Assembly: GCF_001592435.1 (NCBI RefSeq)
Contig: NZ_CP014750.1
Span: 558,001-622,000, forward strand
From: Thermococcus peptonophilus
GTDB taxonomy: Archaea; Methanobacteriota_B; Thermococci; Thermococcales; Thermococcaceae
Direction of reading: 5' to 3'
Length of the DNA stretch: 64,000 nt
Below are positions 22,213 to 55,422 of this stretch, piece after piece. The notes beneath the pieces are model-generated. The model was not told the origin of the DNA, did no database searches, and worked only from the letters and a program-made list of their open reading frames with translations. The first letter of the stretch is position 1; each line of letters opens with the position of its first letter. The position numbers were made by a program, and so were the translations under genes.

Positions 22213-22779
22213 ATGATAGTCATAATGGACAATGGAGGTCAGTACGTCCACAGGATTTGGAGGACTCTCCGCTACCTCGGCGTCGAGGCGAAGATAATCC
22301 CGAATACAACACCGCTCGAGGAGATCAAGACGATGAAGCCGAAGGGGATAATCTTCTCCGGAGGCCCGGACATCAGCAGAACGGGAAACTGCTCTGCAAT
22401 CCTGGAGCACTACGACGAGTTCAACGTTCCAATACTCGGCATCTGTCTCGGACACCAACTCATAGCGAAGCACTTCGGCGGAAAGGTCGGGAGGGGGGAG
22501 AAGGCCGAGTACAGCCTCGTCGAGATAGAGATACTCGATGAGGACGACCTTTTCAAGGGGCTTCCGAGGAAGCTGAGGGTCTGGGAGAGCCACATGGACG
22601 AGGTTAAGGAACTTCCTCCAGGTTTCAAGCTCTTAGCTAAGAGCGAGACCTGTCCCGTCGAGGCAATGAAGCACGAAAGGCTTCCTATCTACGGCGTCCA
22701 GTTCCATCCGGAGGTTGCCCACACCGAACACGGAGCTGAGGTCTACCGCAACTTCGCGGAGCTGTGTGGGGAGCTTTAG
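22213..22779 (+). CDS. guaAA: GMP synthase glutaminase subunit A
   Basis: This 188-residue class I glutaminase supplies ammonia to GMP synthase subunit B. It opens [16 protein letters not shown]. The nucleophile is Cys78 in GICLGHQ, and the His-Glu pair lies in [10 protein letters not shown]. The ATG follows GAGGTGGAAGA. It is the last gene of the guaAB-guaAA unit, and the next gene reads toward it. Confidence 0.96.
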
Positions 22780-22837: not shown

Positions 22838-23248
22838 TTACTCATCATCCGGGACTATCTCAAGGGAGTATGTAAGCTCGGCACCGCTGAGCTTTACGTG
22901 TGCAGAGGCGGAACAGTATTTATCCTGGCTGAGTTCGATGGCCCTTCTAGCCTTCTCCTCTTTAACGTTTCCGTATATCTTGTAGTGGATGTGAACTCTG
23001 GTGTAGATGCGCGGGTGCTCGTCGCGTCTCTCCCCGGAAATCTCAACTTCCAGCCCCTTTATCGGCTCCCTCATCTTCTGGAGGATCATGACGACGTCGT
23101 ACGCGGTGCACCCGGCCACGCTGAGAAGGAGAAGCTTCATCGGGCTTATGCCGCCATCACCTAAGATGACGGAGCACTTATCGTCTTCCATCCTCCCGAT
23201 GAACTGAAACTCTTTACCTGGCACCCACTTTACTGCCCCTTTGACCAT
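22838..23248 (-). CDS. OsmC/Ohr-family protein
   Basis: OsmC proteins are thiol peroxidases that act on organic hydroperoxides as intertwined dimers. This 136-residue protein has the two expected cysteines, Cys47 in SVAGCTAYDV and Cys112 in DKYCSASAHV. It fits the YhfA-like branch common in Thermococcales. ATG 23248 follows GGTGGTTCC. It is divergent from the radical SAM gene with 56 bases between them, so the promoters abut. Confidence 0.88.
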   Translation of the reverse strand: MVKGAVKWVPGKEFQFIGRMEDDKCSVILGDGGISPMKLLLLSVAGCTAYDVVMILQKMREPIKGLEVEISGERRDEHPRIYTRVHIHYKIYGNVKEEKARRAIELSQDKYCSASAHVKLSGAELTYSLEIVPDDE

Positions 23249-23304
23249 GGAACCACCGAGAGCGCTAAGGTTTACTTTTTTAAATGTATTTCCAAGTGGA
23301 GACC

Positions 23305-24144
23305 ATGTACATAAGGCCATTCGACCCCTGGAAAAGTCCCCTCTGCACCTGCCCCTTCAAGTACACCCTCAACCCCTACACCGGATGCGACCACGCCTGC
23401 GTTTACTGCTACATAACCAGCTACATCCCAAACGCCTTCCGCGTGAGAACTAAAGAAGGTCTTCTCCCCAAGCTTGAAAAGGAGCTTAGAAAGCTCGACA
23501 AAAACGCAATAGTGGCGCTTTCATATTCTTCCGATCCATATCCAACGGTGGAACGGGAGCTTGGAATTACCAAAAAGGTTCTTGAGCTTTTCAGAAGGTA
23601 CAACGTCCGTTGCCTCCTTTTGACGAAGTCCAACATCTTCGAGAGGGATATAGACATCCTGAGCGAGCTGAGGTGTGCTGTCGGAGTAACTGTAACGACT
23701 GTGGACGAGAAGAAGGCAAAGCTCCTTGAACCTAACGCTCCATCTCCAAAGAGAAGGGTAAAGGCACTGAAAAAGGCGAAAGACGCTGGTATTCCGGTCT
23801 ATGCCCGGATAGACCCGATAATTCCCTACTACACGTGGAAAGACTTCGACGAGACGCTTGATGCGCTCTCCTTTGTGAGCCACATAACTGTCTCCACCCT
23901 CAAGCTCCGGCCCGACTCAAAAAAGAGGATGTTCGCAAAGTTCCCGGGGCTTATGGAAAAGCTGTGGCCGCTTTACGAGAGGGGAGAGAGAATAGGGGGC
24001 TACTACTACCTCCCAAAGGACATCAGAATGCCCATCCTGAGGGAAGCCGAAAAGAAGATAACCGAGAAGGGAATCACGTTTGGTTCGTGTCGGGAAGGCT
24101 ATCGGTCGTTTCCAACGTGCGATGGGTCTCATCTTGTTCCATAG
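23305..24144 (+). CDS. Radical SAM protein, SplB/COG1533-like
   Basis: The 279-residue protein carries the radical SAM cluster motif Cys28-x3-Cys32-x2-Cys35 (GCDHACVYC), with two further cysteines just before it (LCTCP) and CREG...C near the end. It resembles COG1533 (spore photoproduct lyase-like) proteins, whose archaeal function is unknown. ATG 23305 follows GTGGAG. The last 71 bases overlap the convergent glutaminase-like gene, an unusually long tail overlap; both C-termini look natural. Confidence 0.82.
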   Translation: MYIRPFDPWKSPLCTCPFKYTLNPYTGCDHACVYCYITSYIPNAFRVRTKEGLLPKLEKELRKLDKNAIVALSYSSDPYPTVERELGITKKVLELFRRYNVRCLLLTKSNIFERDIDILSELRCAVGVTVTTVDEKKAKLLEPNAPSPKRRVKALKKAKDAGIPVYARIDPIIPYYTWKDFDETLDALSFVSHITVSTLKLRPDSKKRMFAKFPGLMEKLWPLYERGERIGGYYYLPKDIRMPILREAEKKITEKGITFGSCREGYRSFPTCDGSHLVP

Positions 24145-24925
24145 TTTCCTGGGCAAGCCTCTTCTTTGCCTCTTCTTCCAGCCGGATCAGCTCAATCTCG
24201 TGCTTCCTCTCCTGATGACCGAGAGCCGCCTTCACCAGCGCCTCATACAGGACTTTCATCTCGTCCAAATACTCGGGCTGCCACTGTACGCCGATAACGA
24301 AGCTCTCGTCTGTGGACTCAATGCCCTCTATCAGACCATCGACGGAAAAAGCAACCTGTCTGAGGCCCTCGCCGACCCTCTTAACGGCCTGGTGGTGGAA
24401 GCTGTTTACCCAGGTCCAGGCATCGTTCGTGCCCTCGATGACCAGGACGTCTTTGAGAATGTTGTAGAGCTTTGAGTCCGTTTTCACCCTTACCGTGTGT
24501 AGCTTCTGGTCGGGCCTGACCCTGCCGATCTCCCAGTCGTGCTTTATGGCCTTTGGGATTTCGTATACGTCCTGGTACAGCGTCCCTCCAAGGGCGACGT
24601 TTATTATCTGCATTCCCCTCCCCACGCCGAGAATCGGGATTTCCCCCTCGATCGCCAGTTTGACAAGGGCTATTTCGAACTCGTCCTTGGTAACGTCCAC
24701 ATCCCTAAGGTTGGGTGAAGGGTCCTCGCCGTAGAACCGAGGGTGGATGTCAGGACCCTCAACGAGGAGTATGCCGTCCGCGACCTCTATAACATCCTCC
24801 GGATCGCCTTCGGGACTGAAGAGCACTGGAAGACCTCCAGCCTCAAGAACCCTCCGGAAGTGATATGTATTCGCGAGGGTGTATCCATCTCTGGAGGTGC
24901 CGATTATGGCTATGATTGGACGCAT
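24074..24925 (-). CDS. Class I glutaminase-like (peptidase C26 family) protein lacking the catalytic Cys and His
   Basis: The 283-residue protein clearly belongs to the gamma-glutamyl-GABA hydrolase (PuuD) family: it has ILGVGRGMQIINVALGG and GVQWQPEYL. In active members these read GICRGMQ and WHPE. Here the nucleophile is Gly102 (GGG) and the general base is Gln216 (CAG), so both catalytic residues are lost. The rest of the fold, including NSFHHQAVK, is conserved, which suggests a kept non-enzymatic role. ATG 24925 follows GGTGAGACTT. The charged C-terminal tail (about 35 residues) accounts for the overlap with the radical SAM gene. Confidence 0.82.
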   Translation of the reverse strand: MRPIIAIIGTSRDGYTLANTYHFRRVLEAGGLPVLFSPEGDPEDVIEVADGILLVEGPDIHPRFYGEDPSPNLRDVDVTKDEFEIALVKLAIEGEIPILGVGRGMQIINVALGGTLYQDVYEIPKAIKHDWEIGRVRPDQKLHTVRVKTDSKLYNILKDVLVIEGTNDAWTWVNSFHHQAVKRVGEGLRQVAFSVDGLIEGIESTDESFVIGVQWQPEYLDEMKVLYEALVKAALGHQERKHEIELIRLEEEAKKRLAQETMEQDETHRTLETTDSLPDTNQT

Positions 24926-24992
24926 AAGTCTCACCAGAGAAAACTAGGGGCAATCAAATAAAAAAGTATAGGTAGCAGACATGAAAAGAAGT

Positions 24993-26246
24993 TCACTTGA
25001 GCCTCCTCATCTCATCCTCTATTACCTCGGCAAGCCTTTTAACTCCTTCGCGAATCTTATCCTCGGGGACATAGGTGAAGTTGAGCCTCATTGTGTTCTT
25101 GACATCCCTGTGGGCGAAGAAAGCCTCACCCGGGACGTAGGCAACGCCCTTGGCAACTGCCTTCTCCATCATGAGCTTGGTGTCGATGCCCTCCGGAAGG
25201 GTCACCCAGATGAACATACCTCCATCGGGCTTCGTCCACCTGACTCCTTCTGGCATGTACTCCTCGAGGGCCTCGAGCATCGCATCCCTTCTCGGCCTGT
25301 AGAACTCGATGATCCTTGGGATGTGCCTATCGAGGTGGCCGTCCTCAACGTATTTCCAGGCTATTACCTGGCCAAACGGGTTCGCACAGAGGTCAACGGC
25401 CTGCTTTGCGATCTCCATCTTCCTGATGAAGTGCGGGTGAGCCGAGACCCATCCGAGGCGGAAGCCGGGGGCGAATATCTTTGAGAACGTGCCTAGGTAG
25501 ATAACACGGCCCTCGTCATCGAAGTGCTTTATCGGGGGTATCGGTTCGCCCGAATAGCGGAGCTCACTGTACGGGTTGTCCTCAACGATAAGGAAGTCAT
25601 ACTCCTTGGCCAGCTCTATGAGGTGCTTTCTCCTCTCGAGGCTCATGGTAACTCCGGCGGGGTTCTGGAAGGTTGAGACGGTATAGACAAACTTTATCCT
25701 CTTCCCCTCGGCCTTTAGCTTTTTGAGCTTCTCTTCGAGGACATCAACTTTCATTCCGTCGTCGTCCAGAGGTATTGAAAGGAACTCCGGCTCATAGAAC
25801 TTGAAGGCGTTCAGGGCGGCCAAGTACGTAGGAGCCTCAACGACCACGATGTCTCCAGGATCAATGAAGACCCTTCCTATCAGGTCAAGCGCCTGCTGGC
25901 TTCCGGCGACTATCATTACCTCGACCTTGCTCATTGGAATCCCGTAGCGTTTTTCCATCCACCTGGCCAGGGCAAGGCGGAGCGGAGTGAAGCCCTTGGT
26001 CGTTCCGTACTGAAGAGCCTTGTCCGCGTGCTTTGAGAGAACCTCCATAGTGATCTCCTTTATAATATCAACGGGGAACGTCTCAGGAGCGGGGAGACCC
26101 CCGGCGAGGCTTATAACGTCGCTCGTTTCGACGAGCTTGAGGAGCTCTCTAACCTCGGATGCTTTCATCTCCATAGCTTTCTGTGAAAAGAACGACTCAA
26201 AATCCAGCGGTTGGGCCGCAAGTTTGTTCTCAAGTTTGTTCTGCAT
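24993..26246 (-). CDS. PLP-dependent aminotransferase (class I/II, 2-aminoadipate/aromatic type)
   Basis: The 417-residue fold-type I aminotransferase has the PLP lysine Lys256 in GTFSKIFAPGFRLGW, NPAGVTM, and the phosphate-site GSQQALDL. It resembles the multisubstrate LysN/ArAT group of Pyrococcus and Thermus; the substrate (aromatic, leucine, or 2-aminoadipate) cannot be told. ATG 26246 is preceded by GGTGGTGATGGTA. A short inverted repeat TGAAC-N6-GTTCA (26263-26278) lies in the leader and could be an operator. Confidence 0.9.
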   Translation of the reverse strand: MQNKLENKLAAQPLDFESFFSQKAMEMKASEVRELLKLVETSDVISLAGGLPAPETFPVDIIKEITMEVLSKHADKALQYGTTKGFTPLRLALARWMEKRYGIPMSKVEVMIVAGSQQALDLIGRVFIDPGDIVVVEAPTYLAALNAFKFYEPEFLSIPLDDDGMKVDVLEEKLKKLKAEGKRIKFVYTVSTFQNPAGVTMSLERRKHLIELAKEYDFLIVEDNPYSELRYSGEPIPPIKHFDDEGRVIYLGTFSKIFAPGFRLGWVSAHPHFIRKMEIAKQAVDLCANPFGQVIAWKYVEDGHLDRHIPRIIEFYRPRRDAMLEALEEYMPEGVRWTKPDGGMFIWVTLPEGIDTKLMMEKAVAKGVAYVPGEAFFAHRDVKNTMRLNFTYVPEDKIREGVKRLAEVIEDEMRRLK

Positions 26247-26262
26247 TACCATCACCACCCAA

Positions 26263-26278
26263 TGAACACATTAGTTCA
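26263..26278 (-). promoter_or_regulatory. Small inverted repeat in the aminotransferase leader
   Basis: TGAAC-ACATTA-GTTCA is a perfect 5-base inverted repeat 17 bases before the start codon, between the likely TATA box (GTTTATAAC on the reverse strand, about 26317-26325) and the ribosome site. It could be a regulator site; a 5-base arm is weak evidence. Confidence 0.3.
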
Positions 26279-26326
26279 CATCATCAAACCTATACATCGA
26301 AATTAACTGGGAGAGGTTTGTTATAA

Positions 26327-27454
<1,128 letters not shown>

Positions 27455-51932: not shown

Positions 51933-54158
51933 ATGGTTGTGAAAGACTGTCCGGAGTGTCACGGAACGGGTAAGGTAAAAGTTGGCGAGAAGGAGTGCCC
52001 CGTGTGTGAGGGCTGGGGATACGTTCCGGCTGACTTTAAGATTGGAGATAAGCTCAAGGGTTACAGGAACCTGGATCACCTTGGAGTTGAGGATGAAGTT
52101 GATGAGATACCCTGTCCGGAGTGCCACGGGAAGGGTACTGTTCCAGTTTACGACACCTGCCCGACCTGCGGGGGAACTGGGAAGGTTCTAGCCTGTGACA
52201 TCTGTGGAAAGATAAAAGAGCCATGGGAACCCGGTATGGAGACCACGTGGGTCTGTCCTGATTGCCTGAGGAAATACAAGGTCGTTTACATCCTCGACAA
52301 GACCTGCGACTATGAGGACGTTGAGGTTGGTAGCCTGTACAAGGGTACGATTGACAGGGTTGAGCGCTTCGGTGTCTTCGTCAAGCTCAATCCCCACGTT
52401 ACCGGCCTCATCAAGAGGAAAGACCTCCTCGGTGGAAGGGAGTACAAGCCCGGCGACGAGATAGTCGTGCAGGTTCTTGACGTGAGGCCGGACAAGAGGG
52501 AAGTTGACCTAATTGAATCAGCGCTCAAGCACTACAAGACGGTCGTTGTTAGGAAGGAGCTTCCGGTCACTCCGATAGCAGAGCTGAACAAGGACATGGC
52601 CGGAAAGACCGTCAGGATACAGGGAAGGGTCACCCAGGTTCAGGTAACCGGCGGGCCGACAGTCTTCACGATAACCGACGGAACAGGAATAACCTGGGTA
52701 GCGGCCTTTGAGGCTCCCGGAGTCAGGGCTTACCCGAACATCAACGTCGGTGACATAGTCGAGGTCATCGGTAAGGTTGCCTTCCACTCGGGCGAGATAC
52801 AGATCGAAGCCAGCGACATGGCGAGGCTCTGGGGCCCGGATGCAGCGAGGGTGAAGCAACAGATAGAGGCCGAGCTCGACAGGAGGGCACAACCGGAAGA
52901 CGTTGGCTTTCTGGTAGAGAGCGAGGTTCTCGAAAAGCTCAAGCCGAGGATAATGAGGGCTGCCTTCATGATAAGGAGGGCCATTCTGGAAGGCAGGCCC
53001 ATACTCCTGAGACATCACGCCGATGCCGATGGCTATACATCCGGCCTGGCCCTTGAGTACGCTATAGTCCCGCTCATCGAGAAGATATCACCAGACCCGC
53101 AGGCGAGGTGGAAGCTCTTCAAGAGGAGGCCGAGCAGGGCACCCTTCTACGAGCTGGAGGATGTGCTCAAGGACATCATATTCATGATCGAAGACCACGA
53201 GAAGTTCGGTGACCCGCTTCCGCTGGTTGTTATAGTTGACAACGGCGGAACGAGTGAGGACATTCCGGCATACAAGCGCATTCGCGCCTACGGCGTCCCG
53301 ATAGTGGTCATAGACCACCACGACCCTCGCGAGTGGGTGAGCGAGGACAAAGCCAAGGTTGACGACTACGTTGACGTCCACGTCAACCCGCACCACGTCA
53401 AGCGCGGCTACTACGAGCTAACCGCGGGAATGCTAGCTACCGAGGTAGCGAGGTTCATCAACCCTGAAGTCGAGGACAAGATAAAACACCTTCCAGCAAT
53501 AGCTGGAACGGGCGACAGGAGCAAGGCCCCAGAGTTCTACCAGTACCTCGAGATAGCGAAGAAGGCGAAGGGCCTCAACGAGGAAGACCTGGAGAAGATA
53601 GCCGAGGTCATCGACCACGAGGCCTACTTCTGGAAGTTCATGGACGGGCACGGAATAATAGACGAGATACTCCTCCTCACCGGCAACCTTCAGAGGCACC
53701 GCGAGCTGATCAATGCCATCTATCCGGAGGTCAAGGAGAAGCAGGAGAAGGCGCTGAGGGCTTCCCTGCCGCACGTTAAGAGCGTCGTCCTGCCGAACGG
53801 CATAAGGTTCAACACGATAGATGTGGAGCTGTTTGCACCGAAGTTCAGCTATCCGTCTCCAGGCAAGCTCTCCGGCCTCATCCACGACCACTTCAAGGAG
53901 AAGTACGGTGAGGACTCGCCGATACTGACCTTGGCATACGGCCCGGACTTCGCGGTTGTCAGGGCCAGCGACGGCATGGCAGCCTACGGCTTCGACCTCA
54001 ACGAGATAATTCCAAGGCTCCAGGAGAAGCTTCCGTCAGCCGGAATCGAGGGCGGCGGTCACAGCTACGCTGGCTCGATAAAGTTCTTCGAGGGCATGAG
54101 GAAAGAAGTCCTCGAGGAGTTCGCCAAGGAAGTCGTGAAGCTGAAGAAGATTTCCTGA
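51933..54158 (+). CDS. DHH-family nuclease with DnaJ-type zinc fingers, S1 and OB domains (HAN/RecJ-like)
   Basis: The 741-residue protein holds, in order, two DnaJ-like zinc-finger regions (CPECHGTGK, CPVCEGWG, CPECHGKG, CPTCGGTGK), a further CxxC pair, an S1 domain (about 130-195), an OB fold (about 215-300), and a DHH/DHHA1 phosphoesterase (RHHADADGYTSG, VIVDNGG, VIDHHDP, GGGHSYAGS). All metal-binding Asp and His look intact. From memory, the T. kodakarensis counterpart is the 3'-5' single-strand nuclease HAN that pairs with helicase Hel308. The ATG follows GGTGAGAAG. The small encapsulin-like gene follows from its own promoter. Confidence 0.92.
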   Translation: MVVKDCPECHGTGKVKVGEKECPVCEGWGYVPADFKIGDKLKGYRNLDHLGVEDEVDEIPCPECHGKGTVPVYDTCPTCGGTGKVLACDICGKIKEPWEPGMETTWVCPDCLRKYKVVYILDKTCDYEDVEVGSLYKGTIDRVERFGVFVKLNPHVTGLIKRKDLLGGREYKPGDEIVVQVLDVRPDKREVDLIESALKHYKTVVVRKELPVTPIAELNKDMAGKTVRIQGRVTQVQVTGGPTVFTITDGTGITWVAAFEAPGVRAYPNINVGDIVEVIGKVAFHSGEIQIEASDMARLWGPDAARVKQQIEAELDRRAQPEDVGFLVESEVLEKLKPRIMRAAFMIRRAILEGRPILLRHHADADGYTSGLALEYAIVPLIEKISPDPQARWKLFKRRPSRAPFYELEDVLKDIIFMIEDHEKFGDPLPLVVIVDNGGTSEDIPAYKRIRAYGVPIVVIDHHDPREWVSEDKAKVDDYVDVHVNPHHVKRGYYELTAGMLATEVARFINPEVEDKIKHLPAIAGTGDRSKAPEFYQYLEIAKKAKGLNEEDLEKIAEVIDHEAYFWKFMDGHGIIDEILLLTGNLQRHRELINAIYPEVKEKQEKALRASLPHVKSVVLPNGIRFNTIDVELFAPKFSYPSPGKLSGLIHDHFKEKYGEDSPILTLAYGPDFAVVRASDGMAAYGFDLNEIIPRLQEKLPSAGIEGGGHSYAGSIKFFEGMRKEVLEEFAKEVVKLKKIS

Positions 54159-54233
54159 TGCCCCTTTTCTTTCCCGGGTTTTGTTCCTGCAAACGTTTTT
54201 AACCTTCAGGACAACCCAGAGATGGTGACAGTT

Positions 54234-54512
54234 ATGAGGGGAGACCTGATAAGGATTCTGAGCTCTGTTGAAGAGAAGGCAAACGAGCTGAAGCTGGAGG
54301 GTTTTGAGCCCGATGTAGTTCTCGTTGGCAAGGAAGCCTACGAGTTCATAAAGGAACAGGTAAACGAGGAGTTTGGTGGGGACGAAGAAGTTCTTGAGCT
54401 CTCCGGCCTCAGGGTGAGAATCCTTGAGGAGCTCGGGGGAGATGCGGTCGTCGTTGACACCAAGGCCCTTGGATACGCTCCAGCCGCGAGGCGCTTCAGG
54501 GTTGTTCAATAA
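54234..54512 (+). CDS. DUF1884 protein, HK97 A-domain (family 4 encapsulin-like)
   Basis: The 92-residue protein starts MRGDLIRILSSVEEKANELK and contains VVLVGKEAYEFIKEQ and ILEELGGDAVVVDTKALGY. It closely resembles, from memory, the P. furiosus DUF1884 protein of known structure, an isolated A-domain of the HK97 capsid fold. Such proteins have been grouped as family 4 encapsulins of Thermococci. ATG 54234 follows GGTGACAGTT, and a TATA element CGTTTTTAACC lies about 30-40 bases upstream. Whether it assembles is unknown. Its neighbours are the DHH nuclease upstream and a convergent CitG-like gene that overlaps its end by 17 bases. Confidence 0.85.
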   Translation: MRGDLIRILSSVEEKANELKLEGFEPDVVLVGKEAYEFIKEQVNEEFGGDEEVLELSGLRVRILEELGGDAVVVDTKALGYAPAARRFRVVQ

Positions 54513-55422
54513 CTCCCCACGCCTTTCCGTCCACAACTTTGATTTTCAGGCCCGCGAGGGCTAAAACGCTGAGCGAAGCCGCCATGATGTCGGCGAGGCT
54601 TCCAGGATTCCTCAGGTCACCTTTTTCCCTGAGAAAGGCGTCGAACTCATCAACGCTGAGCCCTCCCTTGAGAACCTCCCGGGCTTTTTCCATCACGAGC
54701 TCCGCTTCTTCCTTACCGGCTTTCCTGACTATGAGGGTGTCTTCCCTGCTTGCCAGAAGTTCGAGGAAGGCCCTGACGGCAGCATCTTCAAGAGGGTACT
54801 CTTTTATGAGCTGGAATAGTCTCTCAGCGGTCGAGTACGTGAGCTCGTAGCCGGTGAGCCACTCACAGAAGACAAGCTCCCTCTCACAGCTTATCTCAGC
54901 GAGCTTCCACAGGTTTATTCCGTCCCTGAAGAGCTCCTCAAATGAGTCGTCAGAATAGACATCGTACTTGACCTCACCGGGTATTCCCTTCGGGTTGGCC
55001 GTCCTGATTGCCCGGTAAAGCTCCATTGTGTCTCTAACCGTTGAGGACCGGATGAGATCGCGGGCCTTTTCTCCAGCCTCCAGGGGGTTCTTCGAAAGGG
55101 AAGCGCCCATGGCCAGAGGTATTCCCAGTACGAGAACTCCAAAGTTAGGGTTGGCGTCCTGGACTTCCTTCGACGCTATCACCGCCCGTTTTATCAGACT
55201 CCCAATACCAGCCTCAGACGGGAAGAGCTCGCCCCTCCTGACCAGCTCCGCAGTCCTCACGGCCTCATGGTAAACACTCACAACAGCGGTGTTGGCAAAT
55301 ATGAAGTTGTAGAGGGTAAGGTCGCTGAAGTCGCGGTAGCGGTTCACGTTGCCGGGCTTTGGAAGGGCCGCCTCCAGCAGGGGGCCAAGCAGAAACGCCC
55401 TCACTATCTTCCAGCGCTCCAT
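54496..55422 (-). CDS. CitG/MdcB-like triphosphoribosyl-dephospho-CoA synthase family protein
   Basis: CitG enzymes make the CoA-derived cofactor of citrate lyase or malonate decarboxylase. The 308-residue protein has the family motifs ALPKPGNVNRYRDF and GDLRNPGSLADIM, and SSTVRDTMELYRAI. No citrate lyase or malonate decarboxylase gene is nearby, so its role in this archaeon is unclear. ATG 55422 follows GGTGGTGTGA. It begins directly after the stop of the small membrane protein in a PspC operon. Confidence 0.87.
   Translation of the reverse strand: MERWKIVRAFLLGPLLEAALPKPGNVNRYRDFSDLTLYNFIFANTAVVSVYHEAVRTAELVRRGELFPSEAGIGSLIKRAVIASKEVQDANPNFGVLVLGIPLAMGASLSKNPLEAGEKARDLIRSSTVRDTMELYRAIRTANPKGIPGEVKYDVYSDDSFEELFRDGINLWKLAEISCERELVFCEWLTGYELTYSTAERLFQLIKEYPLEDAAVRAFLELLASREDTLIVRKAGKEEAELVMEKAREVLKGGLSVDEFDAFLREKGDLRNPGSLADIMAASLSVLALAGLKIKVVDGKAWGVIEQP

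Follow-up and report, generated by a model that had tools for sequence, protein, structure and literature searches.

According to the survey by Andreas and Giessen (2021, PMC8346489), genes of encapsulin family 4A typically lie in an operon with an enzyme, but orphans have also been catalogued. In family 4 the cargo has been assigned from the upstream gene. The stretch of Thermococcus peptonophilus DNA analysed here (64,000 nucleotides, "the window") contains a 4A gene that, as an earlier note had remarked, has no clear cargo enzyme beside it. Why is the cargo gene missing, and what might the protein do where it stands? The features that bear on these questions are as follows.

54234..54512, + strand: family 4A A-domain encapsulin-like protein, PF08967, 92 aa (profile matches, fold model)
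54224..54228, + strand: Shine-Dalgarno-like GGTGA, at the same position in relatives (sequence reading, alignment)
54190..54202, + strand: putative own promoter of 4A, BRE-like CAAACG followed by TATA-like TTTTTAA (sequence reading)
51933..54158, + strand: HAN-like DHH nuclease, a lineage-specific neighbour separated from 4A by a rearrangement junction (profile match, gene order)
54496..55422, - strand: CitG-like protein, PF01874, E=6.6e-55, convergent with 4A (Pfam, gene order)
54496..54512, no strand: 17-bp tail-to-tail overlap of the 4A and CitG-like genes (locus comparison)
22838..23320, - strand: OsmC-family protein, displaced orthologue of the usual 4A upstream gene (about 80% identity to the 4A-linked OsmC of relatives)
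23284..27454, no strand given: block of radical SAM, GATase-like, aminotransferase and one further gene, which precedes OsmC-MarC-4A in relatives and is inverted relative to 4A here (gene order)

The ORF at 54234-54512 is real, with an ATG start and 92 codons plus a stop. Its product matched PF08967/ENCP4 (E=9.7e-36, 122.2 bits vs a cut-off of 31.4) and no capsid family in the Pfam scan, and it matched the NCBIfam model NF041190, encap_f4a, at 156.6 bits (cut-off 90, E=1.7e-46); the nearest solved structure found by phmmer is 2PK8, P. furiosus PF0899 (E=2.4e-26). The earlier note's description of a DUF1884 protein of family 4, similar to an HK97 A-domain, is thereby borne out and sharpened to 4A, and the HAN-like DHH nuclease and CitG-like protein that it named as neighbours were both recovered. 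Another in-frame ATG is present upstream at 54222; the start at 54234 is favoured because of the GGTGA and the alignment of 58 same-genus relatives. A median dN/dS of 0.08 (NG86, 182 pairs), with values of 0.04-0.09 inside the window's three-genome clade, indicates that the gene is under strong purifying selection.

Within the genus 60/61 genomes carry PF08967, as do 32/33 genomes from the family's other genera, whereas no other family of the class that was examined has it. Besides 4A, the 1.9-Mb window genome contains a single other PF08967 gene, the paralogue 4B, and no full-length family 1 encapsulin; within the genus, family 1 encapsulins occur in only three of 61 genomes. In identity, the 4A protein is an ordinary member of a two-paralogue A-domain family of Thermococcaceae. 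For gene order we compared 87 4A loci, 58 from the same genus and 29 from five further genera of the family.

Neighbours and putative promoter of the 4A gene

In the window, the gene directly upstream encodes the HAN-like nuclease, on the same strand and 75 bp away, rather than the hydrogenase or OsmC of a two-component operon. It matches 5YH1 (E=8e-253), and NCBIfam HAN_nuclease is its best model, yet with a score below the cut-off (654 vs 840). HAN is present in 59/61 genomes of the genus, usually followed by a conserved 84-residue ORF without a Pfam match (20/27 loci) that is missing from the window, and it adjoins 4A in just three loci, those of the window genome and two close relatives forming one clade (support 100). 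Because the adjacency is confined to this clade while HAN is widespread with another gene downstream, comparison of the loci indicates that it is a local rearrangement junction, and we rejected a HAN-4A operon on the same ground.

Elsewhere, the upstream gene is most often OsmC (58 of 87 loci), followed by MarC only (11), sulfhydrogenase (eight), HAN (three) and various others. The OsmC arrangement, on the same strand as 4A, spans four genera, and sulfhydrogenase alpha precedes 4A in eight of nine loci of g28, a genus that its hydrogenase context suggests is Pyrococcus-like. No upstream enzyme is constant, so the set of loci offers no fixed, dedicated cargo gene of the kind expected for an encapsulin. 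Mapped on a CitG tree, adjacency to OsmC has changed at least nine times, with at least six changes forced by well-supported branches. Nevertheless, 56/61 genomes have an OsmC orthologue, and these comprise almost every genome that lost the adjacency (most of the five that gave no match are incomplete assemblies). The window genome has likewise lost the adjacency but kept the gene: its OsmC gene lies 31 kb from 4A, inverted relative to it and still attached to the radical SAM/GATase-like/aminotransferase block that precedes OsmC elsewhere, and its MarC orthologue (79-85% identity) is at C1:1307592, about 0.7 Mb away. Reshuffling of an ancestral OsmC-(MarC)-4A-CitG block thus accounts for the missing cargo gene.

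The displaced OsmC gene is now convergent with a gene for a GMP-synthase glutaminase-type subunit (22213-22779, + strand). A single simple inversion that would bring HAN back beside this subunit was considered and rejected: none of the 30 HAN loci searched has the subunit as a neighbour of HAN, so more than one rearrangement is needed.

The 4A gene also appears to carry its own promoter. The putative element at 54190-54202, CAAACGTTTTTAA, has its TATA-like part starting 38 bp before the ATG, and a TATA-like element 37-50 bp before the start is found in 55/58 same-genus 4A genes vs 0/59 4B genes. The same scan detected it in 19/20 loci of genera g27, g29, g30 and g31 and in 4/9 g28 loci, the remaining g28 loci having, by eye, a TTTTTAT nearer the start. 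With this element conserved before 4A and missing before 4B, 4A looks like a free-standing transcription unit and 4B like a gene that depends on DeoC. Two further observations concern this region. In g28, the 4A genes behind sulfhydrogenase begin two codons further upstream and have no visible Shine-Dalgarno site, suggesting leaderless transcripts. A SurR-type GTTN3AAC match, GTTTTTAAC (54195-54203), overlaps the TATA element of the window gene; it occurs in 6/87 loci, is not conserved and is probably due to chance.

4A therefore looks, from sequence comparison, like an autonomous and strongly conserved gene rather than part of operon-bound cargo packaging. We attribute the absence of a cargo gene to rearrangement because 4A is near-universal and conserved and has its own promoter element, while its upstream neighbours have changed freely. 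The full account that we favour, at a probability of roughly 60%, is that 4A is autonomous, that its cargo gene is absent by rearrangement, and that its product would be a small homo-oligomeric scaffold or adaptor acting in trans. Among the options raised in the earlier note, independence of 4A is the best supported, given the promoter element and the changing neighbours.

Alternatively, OsmC, alone or together with MarC, could be what 4A genuinely partners or stabilises; the window lineage may then simply have split the genes of products that still interact. The breadth of the same-strand arrangement and the retention of OsmC where adjacency was lost are consistent with this idea. Both genes are near-universal, however, so co-retention says little, and the adjacency has been altered repeatedly, 4A has a promoter element even where OsmC adjoins it, and the g28 genes sit behind sulfhydrogenase instead. 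We regard a dedicated OsmC partnership of this kind as unlikely; the frequent adjacency itself could reflect either a real functional link or cotranscription by read-through.

Relation of the 4A fold to HK97 capsids

An AlphaFold monomer model of the 4A protein, built from an alignment of 54 sequences, has a pLDDT of 93.4 and the order helix-strand-helix-three strands. Foldseek superposes it on 2PK8 with a TM-score of 0.97, an rmsd of 0.7 Å and 50% identity, and the protein is thus predicted to be an isolated A-domain of about 90-100 aa like that structure. Matches to HK97-fold capsid proteins have TM-scores of about 0.5-0.58 and E values of 0.08-0.5, none individually significant. Leaving 2PK8 aside, the top 50 PDB matches nonetheless consist overwhelmingly of HK97-fold capsid or encapsulin proteins from many different phages, and family 1 and family 2A encapsulins are among the matches; capsid proteins are also frequent among matches in the viral structure library BFVD. 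Several of the BFVD matches are short phage proteins (76-128 residues; Bacillus phages SP-15 and CP-51, Haloferax tailed virus 1, Halogranum tailed virus 1) whose predicted structures are similar to an A-domain standing alone (TM 0.42-0.67).

At the sequence level, Pfam and PHROGs scans revealed no capsid homologue and no phage match, INPHARED and a pattern scan of IMG/VR contained no viral homologue, and PLSDB contained no convincing plasmid homologue. A weak Sphingopyxis plasmid match (PLSDB, E=0.03) sits in a strawberry-notch-family gene and was discarded. A match to a PHROG tail-fiber profile (the window protein at E=0.01, the best of 54 members at 0.00025) involves a small stretch of its 1029 positions and was taken as chance.

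With structural matches to the HK97 fold and no capsid homologue by sequence, the A-domain reading is well supported as to fold and less so as to descent. The resemblance could be convergence of a small alpha/beta fold instead of shared ancestry, as the lack of sequence matches to capsid proteins, whether from phages, plasmids or IMG/VR, and the modest scores of single HK97 capsids would allow. The dominance of HK97-fold proteins among the best PDB matches, and their frequency in the viral library, argue against convergence, which we consider rather improbable. A further reading, which we put at somewhat below even odds, is that 4A is no cargo-enzyme encapsulin but a virus-capsid A-domain recruited as an independently expressed, free-standing housekeeping protein of Thermococcaceae, having a conserved binding face on helix 1 and a partner that gene order does not give.

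CitG, closed shells and HAN as alternatives

The neighbour that did stay with 4A is the CitG-like gene. It is the convergent downstream gene in all 78 loci outside g28, across five genera, and the 3' ends of the two genes overlap by 8-17 bp in 77 of them. In the lone exception, a g1 locus, the genes are about 1.8 kb apart, and the insertion between them contains two ORFs (393 and 185 aa). Such constancy might mean that 4A works together with the CitG-like enzyme and that the two genes are kept together for that reason. The shared 3' ends explain the linkage without a functional tie, though such a tie could exist as well, because a break between the overlapping genes would harm both. Further, 4B is likewise convergent with an unrelated transporter gene (58/59), an insertion was tolerated between the genes in the g1 locus, g28 keeps both genes far apart (8/8 genomes tested), and CitG occurs without 4A in other archaea used as control genomes. 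A 4A-CitG pair thus seems quite improbable, and the earlier note's suggestion that 4A may assemble or regulate the CitG-like protein is not supported.

Self-assembly of 4A into a closed, cargo-holding shell, as in classical encapsulins, is more doubtful still. The A-domain fold and the published proposal (PMC8346489) speak for it. The model, however, predicts a single 92-residue domain, which is unlikely to close into a shell since it lacks the P-domain, E-loop and N-arm. The window genome also lacks a full-length family 1 encapsulin with which 4A might co-assemble, and the 87 loci share no constant cargo gene. We know of no loading peptide defined for family 4.

That 4A assists or regulates the HAN nuclease, the other possibility raised in the earlier note, is suggested by the shared strand and short gap in the window and can practically be set aside, given that HAN is widespread but next to 4A in a single clade, is usually followed by another small ORF, and precedes a gene with its own promoter element.

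The 4B paralogue and other A-domain systems

The second PF08967 gene of the window genome, 4B (C1:993685-993918, within the region C1:989700-997900), is placed very differently. It shares 8 bp with the 3' end of DeoC and 4 bp with a convergent gene, named ECF-transporter-like from its sequence. Among the 58 loci that include sequence upstream of 4B, 57 have DeoC directly before it, nearly always with an overlap, and the transporter-like gene adjoins 4B in 58/59, mostly with the 4-bp overlap; the arrangement is nearly invariant in the genus. The two proteins also differ in what is conserved. Helix 1 has a mean conservation of 0.88 in 4A (83 distinct sequences) vs 0.56 in 4B (56 sequences); it is the best-conserved part of 4A, with 13/20 positions at 95% or more and with conserved charged residues (R2, R7, E13, E14, K15) on its surface, while the best-conserved part of 4B is its C-terminal half (0.84). 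This pattern suggests that 4A and 4B are paralogues with different binding faces.

Helix 1 of 4A is thus likely to be an oligomer or partner interface. In the autonomous account that we favour, the two helices of 4A would mediate its assembly, as in the HK97 A-domains of a capsomer, and the almost invariant helix 1 would provide the self-assembly or partner face; its conservation could alternatively reflect binding of something other than 4A itself. The protein would act in trans on a soluble partner, with OsmC as the first candidate, rather than package the product of an upstream gene. In the crystal 2PK8 is a dimer, an arrangement that the survey authors put down to its tag (PMC8346489). A complex of GAPDH and a 4B protein seen in proteomics, as quoted there, supports adaptor-like behaviour for 4B, not for 4A.

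The inference of cargo from the upstream gene looks weak for 4A, which carries a promoter element of its own and has repeatedly changed neighbours, while 4B is tightly tied to DeoC in the genus. Gene order is a poor guide to the 4A partner, and pull-down is preferable to synteny. The two paralogues offer a clean natural contrast for what an isolated capsid A-domain does in the cell.

Compared with the A-domain of the HK97 major capsid protein and with classical encapsulins, 4A shares two helices packed against a beta sheet but is predicted to lack the other elements of those proteins and has no detected sequence-level similarity to them. 4B has a paralogous A-domain fold with core residues in common with 4A (G23, P26, D27, G32, D70, A71, D75, G80 and R87), but overlaps DeoC, lacks its own promoter element and has its most conserved residues outside helix 1. 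PF0899, the protein of 2PK8, belongs to the same family as the window protein; its published context is downstream of sulfhydrogenase I, whereas the window gene is downstream of HAN and convergent with CitG. The OsmC-type 4A loci of Thermococcus described in the survey (PMC8346489) are orthologous to the window gene, and the window lineage keeps both OsmC and MarC but at a distance from 4A. The survey treats 4A as part of an enzyme operon, with no mention, in the parts consulted, of a promoter element of its own or of an overlapping CitG gene, whereas the 4A genes related to that of the window have their own predicted promoter element.
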